Positions 16,621 to 24,017 of a stretch of DNA of 52,024 nt are shown in pieces. Within the stretch, counting starts at the first letter, position 1. Each line of letters starts with the position of its first letter. The stretch is from Desulfovibrio sp. GTDB lineage: Bacteria > Desulfobacterota > Desulfovibrionia > Desulfovibrionales > Desulfovibrionaceae. Location: positions 1 through 52,024 of the forward strand of contig JAITHT010000013.1 of assembly GCA_031279825.1 (NCBI GenBank). Reading direction: 5' to 3'. The translations under genes and the position numbers were made by a program. The notes beneath the pieces are model-generated. The model searched no databases, was not told the DNA's origin, and was given only the letters and a program-made list of their open reading frames with translations.

Positions 16621-17165
16621 TGCTTGTTTACTTCGTCGAGAAGAGGCTTCCAAACAGACTTTTCCACAAGCGGGTTCCTGAATCGGCAGATGGTCGTATG
16701 GTCGGGAACCGATTCCGAGAGCGCTATGCCCGTGAAGCGTGAGAACGAAATGCGGTCAGTCAACGTAAATTCGGTTTCCTGATCGCTCAACCCATACCAT
16801 TGCCGCAACAGCAATATTTTGAACATTATCAGGGCGGGGTACGGCCGCGGGCCGGAACGAACGGCTTTGTCGTCTCGCCCCAAGCGGGAATGCGGAAGCT
16901 TTTCAATGCGTTTCTAGTGTCTAATTGTAAAAATTACAAGTATATTTTTGCGGATACTTTTGCAGGATCGTTGGCTGAAAAACATGGTTTTCAGCCGACT
17001 TACGTCGCCTTCGGCGGCGCAAACTCTCCAAGGTTTTCTAGTGTTTACTTTTGCAAGTAAACACTAGTTTACCATGGCGTCAACGCCATCCAGAAAACTG
17101 ACATGGATGCGATTCTTGGCGGCATAAAAATCAGCCAACCCAAATTGACCCATCGTGCGTTCCAT
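16621..17165 (-). pseudogene. IS5-family transposase remnant interrupted by a MITE
   Basis: Read leftward from the ATG at 17165, the first 33 codons (MERTMGQFGLADFYAAKNRI and following) end at a TAG formed by the inserted element at 16914-17067. Coding resumes at 16913 with KRIEKLPHSRLGRDDKAV, then the DUF772 N-terminal transposase domain (LRQWYGLSDQETEF, DHTTICRFRN) down to EVNKQ at 16621. The catalytic DDE domain is missing: the sequence breaks at a fragment resembling repeat A next to the recD2 stop codon. The gene is therefore doubly broken, and no inverted repeat termini of the IS could be identified. Confidence 0.85.
16914..17067 (-). mobile_element. MITE copy 1, inserted in the IS5 transposase remnant
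   Basis: 154 bp including CTAG at both ends. The termini form imperfect inverted repeats (CTAGTGTTTACTTGCAAAA against CTAGTGTCTAATTGTAAAA). Internal hairpins include a 10 bp stem GTGTTTACTT/AAGTAAACAC and GTCGGCTG/CAGCC-type arms. It has no ORF. A second copy lies inverted at 23863-24017. CTAG fits the 4 bp YTAR target duplication known for part of the IS5 family. Confidence 0.8.
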
Positions 17166-17286
17166 GGCTCACCTCATCAGGTTTCGATAAGGCGATATAT
17201 CCGTAATTTAAGAATAATATCAATATATTATTCAAAAATAATCAAAAATAACCTGCAATGGTCTTAAAATACAGATCATTCGGCTG

Positions 17287-18423
17287 CTACTCAAAACGCA
17301 AAGACTGGGCACGACCACAAAATTGCTTAAGGTCTTCCACCGTGCAACCGTCCGTTAATAGGTGGTAGTTAGCCCAATCTGCCATATTATGCTGGATTGA
17401 TAGAGAGCTCCAGTTGAAATTATCAAGATCTGGTGAATACTTTTGCATGAAAAACTCCCAAAGCCAAGTTCCGGGCAAAGGGTGAACCGGAAAAATTTCA
17501 ATCAGGCATTTACCACGATTTTTGTTTATAAATTCATAGGAGAGCGCGAGAGTCTCAGGGGTTTCCCCGGGAAAGCCGATGACTATGCCGGAATTCGGTA
17601 TGTAGCCGAAGCTGTTCAAAAGATCTATGCAGTGCTGATTTTGCTTCACGGTCGTTTTTTTATTCATCATTTTCAAAATGACATCAGAGCCGCTCTCCGC
17701 GCCAAAAGCGACGTTGTTGACATTCATCATCCGCAGCAATTCCAAAACTTCCGGCGCAACACTGTCCGCCCTGACCAGACAGCTGAAATCAATGGAGTTC
17801 AAGCCGGCGGCAATGATACGTTCCACCAAATTTTTCAGTCTTTTGGCGTCGACTGTGAACAAATCGTCAAAAATACTGATATTTCGTACGCCTAATGTTG
17901 CGAGCTCGGAAATTTCGGCAATCACACGGTTAACCGGCAACGGGTAATAGCCGTTCCAAAATGCGCTGGAAGAACAAAAACGGCATTTAAAGGGGCAACC
18001 CCGGCTTGTCATGACCACGTGAGTCTTGCCTGGCAGATGCATATCCGGAAAAATTGTCCAATCCGGGAGAGGCTGGCGAGAAATTTGGGCGAGGCATTCC
18101 AGCGGGCCAATGAAAGGTTCACCGAATTTCAGCGTATGAGGTAAGGCCGTCACATGCTGTCCGCCGACAATGAAACGCTTGTCTTGAGCGGTTACCTTTT
18201 CTCCCAGCTTGTTAACCTGACTCCAGGCGTTGGTCAGACCAGAACAACAGACAAGGTCCGCCTCAAGTATCTCGCGTTCATTTAGTGAAAAAAACACCTC
18301 CGTATTTGGAAACTTTTGCTTCAGCAAAGGTGCGATAACCGCCATTCCATATGGATATGTAAAAGTGGCGGTTGCAGTCTCGCTGTTACTTGCAAGAGTC
18401 AGGGCAATACGCTGGCGTCTCAT
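17287..18423 (-). CDS. B12-binding-type radical SAM protein
   Basis: 378 residues. The radical SAM cluster motif is C143-x3-C147-x2-C150 (RGCPFKCRFCSS), followed by segments typical of the TIM barrel (IFDDLFTVD, FGAESGSD, GIVIGFPGET). The preceding 130 residues look like a short, partly degenerate version of the cobalamin-binding-like domain of B12-dependent radical SAM enzymes (FIVGGQHVTALP). The likely reaction is a methylation or rearrangement of a small molecule or sugar/lipid moiety, but the substrate is unknown. It is downstream of, and in the same orientation as, the large glycosyltransferase gene, which suggests a role in cell-surface glycan synthesis. The ribosome binding site is weak. 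Confidence 0.85.
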   Translation of the reverse strand: MRRQRIALTLASNSETATATFTYPYGMAVIAPLLKQKFPNTEVFFSLNEREILEADLVCCSGLTNAWSQVNKLGEKVTAQDKRFIVGGQHVTALPHTLKFGEPFIGPLECLAQISRQPLPDWTIFPDMHLPGKTHVVMTSRGCPFKCRFCSSSAFWNGYYPLPVNRVIAEISELATLGVRNISIFDDLFTVDAKRLKNLVERIIAAGLNSIDFSCLVRADSVAPEVLELLRMMNVNNVAFGAESGSDVILKMMNKKTTVKQNQHCIDLLNSFGYIPNSGIVIGFPGETPETLALSYEFINKNRGKCLIEIFPVHPLPGTWLWEFFMQKYSPDLDNFNWSSLSIQHNMADWANYHLLTDGCTVEDLKQFCGRAQSLRFE

Positions 18424-18599
18424 AGATCTACTCTTTTGCCTTTATTGTTTAGCATCTTGGCAGGGTTAAATCCTGCAACATTTCTTGTGTAAAGCTTGGC
18501 CATAAGCACATACAACCCACCATATCCTTAACTCTTATGTCTATGCGATATCTGTTACACCCTGTTGTAGCCGGTTTACCGATATTTTATGTTTGAGCG

Positions 18600-23429: not shown

Positions 23430-23610
23430 ATGTCGCGTCCTCATTTGTGAAGGGAAATAAAAAAGCCGTAAGGCGGAAGAACGCTGATTCGTTCTTTCGC
23501 CTCACGGCAATATGAACACAACAAAAGACGACCAGACCTCGCCGACGGCGAAATCTGGAAACGTCAAAAAGGAACTTTATGTTTTCTAGAAGGTAACTAC
23601 TTGCGGAGTT

Positions 23611-23663
23611 GAGAGAGAGAGAGAGAGAGAGAGAGAGAGAGAGAGAGAGAGAGAGAGAGAGAG
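23611..23663. repeat. (GA)26 dinucleotide tract
   Basis: An uninterrupted 53-base GA run in the 5' region of the large glycosyltransferase gene, about 180 bp before its start codon. Such tracts are prone to slipped-strand length change. Read on the leftward strand it is (CT)n within an open frame (23413-23748) that overlaps the glycosyltransferase start. Confidence 0.97.
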
Positions 23664-23862
23664 CAAATACTGTGCCGTAAGAGTCAGTCCACATCAGACT
23701 GTTACGCAACCCCGGAACCGGGAAGCCGCATATTCTCTCCGCAACCATCTCTGTGCCCCGCCCCTTGTATGGATTCTTTCTTAGCTAAGGAACCGCTGAT
23801 TTAATCCCCAGTATATGATCGCCAACACGTCGCATTTTCATTAGTGTTAACATGCTCCAGAT

Positions 23863-24017
23863 CTAGTGTTTACTTGCAAAAGTAAACACTATAAAATCCT
23901 GGAGGGTTTTATACCGCCGAAGGCGGCGTAAGTCGGCTGGAAACCATGTTTTTCAGCCGACGATCCTGCAAAAATATCCGCAAAAATATAGTTGGATTTT
24001 TTGCAATTAGACACTAG
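23863..24017 (+). mobile_element. MITE copy 2, at the 3' end of the TPR gene
   Basis: 155 bp, inverted relative to 16914-17067 and about 85-90% alike by eye, with CTAG at both ends. Its right terminal CTAG (24014-24017) supplies the TAG stop codon of the leftward TPR protein gene. Internal hairpins match those of copy 1. The bases between the (GA)n tract and this element (23664-23862) show no gene. Confidence 0.82.

Follow-up and report, generated by a model that had tools for sequence, protein, structure and literature searches.

The two inverted repeats that bracket a radical SAM protein (rSAM) gene and a giant glycosyltransferase (GT) gene in the window (the whole 52,024-nucleotide stretch of Desulfovibrio DNA analysed here) are very likely independent insertions of a non-autonomous MITE of the IS630 (Tc1/mariner) type, as judged from their sequences. 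The repeat, which we call MITE-A, is taken to represent a new MITE family of the IS630 type, hosted by a genus of the Desulfovibrionaceae and of the RUP-like kind already known. It had originally been predicted that a hairpin-rich element of about 154 bp, with CTAG ends, imperfect TIRs and internal hairpins, is present in opposite orientation on both sides of these genes, and the inverted arms, the end reads and folding all bore this out (Table 1). The arms comprise 125 nt (86%) and 47 nt (91%), the two copies are 90% identical over 154 nt, and CTAG is found at both termini of each copy. A MITE-A copy folded as DNA reached -33 kcal/mol, compared with a shuffle mean of -14.1 (z -6.6; none of 200 shuffles was as good). 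The element had also been described as new-looking, and no published description of a MITE-like element in Desulfovibrio was found in the open-access literature.

Table 1. Positions of the features discussed in the text, in window coordinates.
Feature	Position	Strand	Remarks
MITE-B	3068-3195, 35624-35754, 51598-51729		three copies, TAG-type ends
MITE-C	11553-11708, 35471-35626		ends unlike those of MITE-A, same two-hairpin core
Remainder of the IS5 transposase frame	16350..16913	-	family match ends near the recD2 stop
MITE-B-like end fragment	16605..16622	+	begins at the recD2 stop codon
MITE-A copy 1	16914..17067	+	TIRs, two internal hairpins, terminal palindrome
Core hairpin 1	16970..16999	+	12-bp stem; compensatory changes among copies
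Core hairpin 2	17003..17019	+	7-bp GC stem
Right-end palindrome, CTAG...CTAG	17038..17067	+	also solo at G000:C16:80948-80977
IS5/DUF772 transposase remnant, N-terminal part	17068..17165	-	one side of copy 1
rSAM gene	17287..18423	-	GC 0.474, lowest of 26 window ORFs compared
GT gene (1614-aa protein)	18600..23444	-	three GT2 glycosyltransferase stretches and a methyltransferase domain
(GA)26.5 perfect dinucleotide array	23611..23663	.	upstream of the giant GT gene
Fragment common to C7, C36 and C90	23787..23843	+	in C90 leads into the start of an IS5-type transposase; probably an IS5-type end
MITE-A copy 2	23863..24017	-	opposite orientation to copy 1
TPR protein gene	24014..27613	-	C-terminal end as in congener homologs; TAG stop formed at the end of copy 2

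MITE-A is short, carries no transposase and is present in many dispersed copies, as is characteristic of an IS630-type MITE. Its own genome (2.23 Mb searched, 94 contigs, 83% complete) contained at least 50 matches at E <= 0.001, with 40 of 59 candidates scored, which is far more than chance would give; these were 34 near-complete copies of about 154 bp, four fragments, two solo end hairpins of 26-30 bp and 10 self-matches of palindromic parts. The search of related genomes for further copies, suggested with the original prediction, revealed a dispersed repeat: 13 of the 40 genomes searched gave matches (own genome counted), including 10 of 14 congeners, a few of the matches there being mere fragments; two further genomes with matches belong to other genera, and in one of these the match spans just 21 bp. 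The right-end palindrome was also found alone, as a 26-30 bp unit, at C16 (Table 1) and at C24:21597-21622; this is possibly the smallest mobile form.

The ends of MITE-A match those of an IS630-family element

IS630 is proposed as the mover of MITE-A because the MITE-A ends match those of an 827-bp IS630-family element (G000:C68:78378-79204, hereafter the C68 element), which contains a broken IS630-family transposase gene. Two pieces of the C68 element, covering both ends of the transposase, matched NCBIfam NF033545 (1e-11 and 2.9e-7), both scores being under the curated cut-off for a whole protein. The C68 element ends in CTAGTGTCTAATTGCAAAAATC and, inverted, TTAGTGTTTAGTTGCAGAAATTT; the TIRs of MITE-A agree with these at 20/21 nt on the left and 17/21 nt on the right. 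Left and right ends agree with one another at 17-18/21, so that the right ends of the MITE and the IS (17/21) are no closer. A pattern search for MITE-A ends returned solo left ends with a different interior, and the left end of the C68-type IS was present at five more loci (C7, C9, C16, C61 and C78).

An intact IS630 with exactly the MITE-A ends was not found when the 193-aa IS630 piece was compared with 119 genomes of the bacterial family: this search returned C68, one 37-aa match (57%) and a remainder at 23-31% identity. In the host itself (genome 83% complete), the IS630 transposases found were decayed or distant ones only. TA-GTGT ends were also seen in distant IS630s from this bacterial family (L177 and L179), the open frames of which span 353-359 aa. 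The flanks of the L177 element (positions 784-1941; G005:C103) are themselves perfect inverted repeats that join at TCTAGA, so that the element looks like an insertion into the middle of a palindrome.

The enzyme that recognised the ends TA-GTGTCTAATTGCAAAAA and TA-GTGTTTACTTGCAAAA would thus have been a transposase of the IS630 family that has since decayed in this genome; it would have moved MITE-A in trans by cut-and-paste, with insertion at the TA within CTAG and duplication of the TA. Duplication of the TA only is what the IS630 parent family would lead one to expect; the copies fit it and do not prove it. IS630 reportedly has a preference for CTAG.

MITE-A insertions often coincide with stop codons

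Copy 2 lies at the stop codon of the TPR gene, the protein product of which has the C-terminus seen in congeners (11 loci compared, from 11 of the 14 genomes). None of these 11 loci carries MITE-A at the TPR 3' end; in one congener (G009), a MITE-B-like end begins at the same TPR stop codon.

ORFs of at least 150 aa that read into MITE-A had their stop exactly at the element end in 7/8 cases in the own genome and in 11/17 cases in relatives, where one third was expected (p 0.0026 and 0.008, respectively); the 150-aa threshold was set only once the data had been looked at, and one of the own ORFs counted (L072, 153 aa) is doubtful and maybe spurious. With a 100-aa cut, the proportions were 8/12 in the own genome (p 0.019) and 11/25 in relatives (p 0.18). 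The exact end stops were six TAG and one TAA in the own genome, and eight TAG, one TAA and two TGA in relatives. Under the same rule MITE-B gave 1/9, which is not significant (4/9 with the right end placed one base further in). Some of the own-genome proteins that stop at MITE-A have recognisable full-length ends and resemble AsnS and GcvH.

CTAG is scarce in the window, where base composition predicts 199 occurrences and 17 are present, a 12-fold deficit; therefore, the small number of remaining targets may include stop codons and MITE ends. Insertions would collect at such CTAG sites, whether in a stop codon (C-TAG) or at the end of a MITE already in place, and as the element starts with G after the TA, a TAG stop codon would be rebuilt. 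Selection may have removed insertions elsewhere.

A two-hairpin core is common to repeats with different ends

Two-sided changes in the hairpin stems were counted in two sets of sequences, the shuffles used for comparison ignoring relatedness in both. In the first set, A1 (33 own copies, three hairpins), 11 cells showed two-sided change, and none of 500 shuffles gave as many; the number of pairs concerned (five) was reached by 13 of the 500. The second set, A2 (21 sequences, taking in by choice three MITE-C rows and three rows with unclear ends), had 22 two-sided cells in 6 of the 12 pairs of helix 1; again none of 500 shuffles gave as many cells, and 41 of 500 reached the pair number.

A model of the core, made from 16 rows of MITE-A-ended sequences only, some of them fragments, was used to search 90 sources. 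It matched MITE-C at positions 11606-11669 (3e-6) and 35510-35573 (3e-4) of the window and in other MITE-C copies (7e-8), as well as a repeat with other ends (L277:2990; 2e-10) and a sequence in another genus (L181; 3e-7). The single weak hit of a first core model to a GT locus (L227, E 0.047) is taken to be a chance match. Besides MITE-A and MITE-C, the core is carried by a repeat that has CTAGTCTGGTGTCTCAG at one of its ends and by a repeat next to an IS630 in another genus; at the sequence level, the two-hairpin core is common to repeats with different ends. It is possible, although doubtful, that what this bacterial family retains is this core rather than the whole MITE, and that the core is held by compensatory change. 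If so, ends would have been swapped, and one selected structural module could follow different IS630 transposases.

It is unlikely that the core has been domesticated as a terminator or RNA processing site between genes, with the placement at stop codons reflecting selection for this role. Such a role would suit the strong folding, the stop-codon positions, the presence of the core in repeats with different ends and the numbers of two-sided cells, which no shuffle reached with relatedness ignored; however, some shuffles did reach the numbers of two-sided pairs, the scarcity of CTAG can explain the placement at stop codons, and no U-run follows the GC stems in the sequence. Nor does gene orientation argue for it: own copies lie 6 times between convergent, 6 times between divergent and 17 times between tandem genes, with 5 at edges (baseline 3, 7 and 17), and copies in relatives 6, 4 and 12 times, with 12 at edges and 2 inside ORFs (baseline 11, 10 and 26). 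The idea of a terminator of convergent genes was dropped, as there was no excess between convergent genes in the own genome or in relatives. A search of Rfam with positions 16500-24500 returned no family at gathering score.

Copy 1 interrupts an IS5 pseudogene

Copy 1 was inserted into a pseudogene of the IS5 type. The transposase remnant reads on collinearly and in the same frame across copy 1, with one amber codon at the junction; it is continuous on both sides of the copy, and the IS5 gene is therefore the target. The original prediction placed an IS5 remnant at one edge of the segment and proposed IS5 as the enzyme that moved the repeats. The remnant is indeed present, but copy 1 is inserted inside it, and the role of mover is not supported: the ends of MITE-A match the IS630-family C68 element, and the IS5 gene is the victim.

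IS5 generates YTAR target duplications. MITE-A would accordingly be an IS5-type MITE if CTAG were a 4-bp (YTAR) duplication and the copies had been moved by an IS5 transposase like that of the neighbouring remnant; TGTCTAATTGCAAAAA would then be the ends that an intact IS5 parent carries. We consider this very unlikely. The IS5/DUF772 remnant does adjoin copy 1, and a MITE fragment abuts another IS5 transposase (C52:4864-4965), but the neighbouring IS5 gene is itself interrupted by copy 1, the MITE-A ends are carried by the C68 IS630 element, and the one readable end of IS5 type, GGAACCGCTGATTTAATC (C7, C36 and C90), is unlike the MITE-A ends, so that the TIRs of resident IS5 elements, as represented by this end, do not match MITE-A. 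The IS5 transposase at C52 had been considered as the autonomous parent and was dropped once the C68 element was seen. IS5 remnants are numerous in the own genome, one such transposase having 23 matches there.

CTAG at the termini does not by itself separate IS5 from IS630: CTAG around a copy can be a 4-bp duplication, or a TA duplication within a CTAG target. We tabulated the ends of 43 copies, 33 from the own genome and 10 from relatives. CTAG was found at both ends in 18 of the 33 own copies, and the copies are compatible with a 4-bp duplication. The left and right tetranucleotides were equal in 22/43 copies and unequal in 21/43; the unequal ones speak against a 4-bp duplication, but later mutation can produce such inequality. 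TA bases were kept at 157/172 positions. Inner bases were kept in 82/86 cases and outer bases in 74/86 (Fisher p 0.06); the own copies alone gave 62/66 and 59/66 (p 0.53), and the relatives alone gave p 0.047. TA was present at both ends in 24/33 own and 5/10 relative copies, of which 20 were CTAG/CTAG and 8 of the 9 others had unequal tetranucleotides. This last count was at one point taken as decisive for TA over a 4-bp duplication, and was dropped as such, having been made after the filter for TA at both ends. Two copies are nested in other repeats. One (L014) splits a MITE-C/MITE-B junction, and the same kind of junction, not the same site, is continuous at positions 35472-35650 of the window, with MITE-B reversed there. 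The other (L028) lies inside a MITE-B copy; uninterrupted copies show one gap and about two mismatches, with no TA there.

The genes between the two copies are most probably not a MITE-borne module

None of 14 congeners has a close counterpart of rSAM (27% identity at best, in G006; 38% elsewhere). Comparison of G+C content and codon usage, which the original prediction had proposed and which was made here with other window ORFs, gave a divided answer: rSAM has the lowest G+C content of the ORFs compared, and in codon usage it does not stand out (distance 0.341, other ORFs up to 0.363). Relatives of the GT protein are present at seven loci in Desulfovibrio genomes, three of which show 55-65% identity along about 1000 aa; no match to rSAM or to MITE-A was obtained at any of the seven, of which three have little sequence on one side. 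A contig search with the GT protein likewise returned Desulfovibrio relatives and no source for rSAM. RecD2 and the TPR gene were on different contigs in 13/13 congeners that have both, in fragmented assemblies; the RecD2-TPR neighbourhood seems to have been rearranged or acquired, a conclusion that is not firm.

The original prediction saw in this segment a composite, possibly mobile or invertible, module. Two inverted copies 6.95 kb apart, an interior gene with low G+C content and no close congener counterpart, and the separation of RecD2 from TPR in congeners (fragmented assemblies) are what such a module could leave, and IS630-associated composites are reportedly known. However, the IS5 gene is collinear over copy 1, its N-terminal part lying inside the unit and the rest outside; therefore, the unit neither arrived nor inverted after copy 1 was in place. 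The single outer duplication and foreign interior of a composite transposon were not found, as the IS5 remnant crosses copy 1. Copy 2 is at the TPR stop codon, the seven GT-relative loci (three of them short on one side) lack rSAM and MITE-A matches, and rSAM codon usage is unexceptional. The spacing is that of chance: placing 38 copies at random, with contig breaks ignored, gave 4.1 adjacent pairs within 6.95 kb, 2.07 of them inverted, and 4 and 3, respectively, were observed. Two other close inverted MITE-A pairs, on C9 and C61, have spacings (6.8 and 6.4 kb) near that of the window pair. It is thus extremely improbable that inverted MITEs brought in the rSAM and GT genes as a composite transposon or flip them as an invertible cassette.

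The two flanking repeats are probably ordinary, independently inserted MITE copies. On this reading, the rSAM and GT genes form an accessory segment of this lineage that lies between two copies by coincidence, and nothing links the arrival of rSAM to the MITEs. The same gene order without the element in relatives had been named as the observation that would speak against a module; relatives supplied one half of it, the element being absent from the TPR 3' end in the loci compared, and not the other, as the rSAM-GT order was not seen and rSAM has no clear ortholog. An ordinary MITE pair can mimic a mobile glycan cassette, and simple tests tell the two apart: a collinear target gene, the expected spacing of pairs, and a search for the parent IS by its ends.

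The GA array lies about 170-220 bp upstream of the GT start. A stop codon in the GT frame is present between the array and the ATG; therefore, any phase variation would act on the promoter or leader and not on the frame.

Relation to known elements

The closest likeness is with RUP of Streptococcus pneumoniae, which, as far as the published accounts describe it, is also short and non-coding, has TIRs like those of a resident IS630, ends in TA, and is intergenic but also present in IS transposase genes. RUP shares its TIRs with IS630-Spn1, its proposed mobiliser, and often interrupts IS elements, according to sections of PMC2229807 and PMC3049150. RUP differs in length (107 vs 154 bp) and is from an unrelated host, the two being set apart here by description and not by sequence; unlike RUP, MITE-A has a terminal palindrome and a core common to other repeats, and the IS630 here is decayed.

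The TA target and its duplication proposed for MITE-A are those of IS630 and ISY100, ISY100 inserting at TA with duplication of TA in the account given in part of PMC2170065; MITE-A differs in having no transposase. The Correia/NEMIS elements of Neisseria, as summarised in a passage of PMC2229807, resemble MITE-A in having forms of 107 and 155 bp, TIRs and TA termini, but their TIRs are of 24 bp. The pneumococcal BOX element can also provide the stop codon of the preceding gene, and did so for 36 of 58 overlapping CDSs in one annotation, by the part of PMC3049150 that deals with it; that part compares BOX TIRs to ISSpn2, whereas MITE-A would rebuild the stop at its very end. The stop-codon insertions and a core common to differently ended repeats are a modest, testable addition to what is described for IS630-type MITEs.

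Other repeats

A first look at the own genome gave 202 candidates for MITE-B; 40 of these were scored, with at least 52 matches, and MITE-B seems to be even commoner than MITE-A. The right end of MITE-C is a palindrome, bounded by CTAG in one copy. The window also contains a further inverted repeat pair of 158 nt at 94% complementarity (254-411 and 2904-3061), and long direct repeats at 85-94% (14196-14370 and 50415-50590) that have a GC-rich hairpin and end near coding starts.
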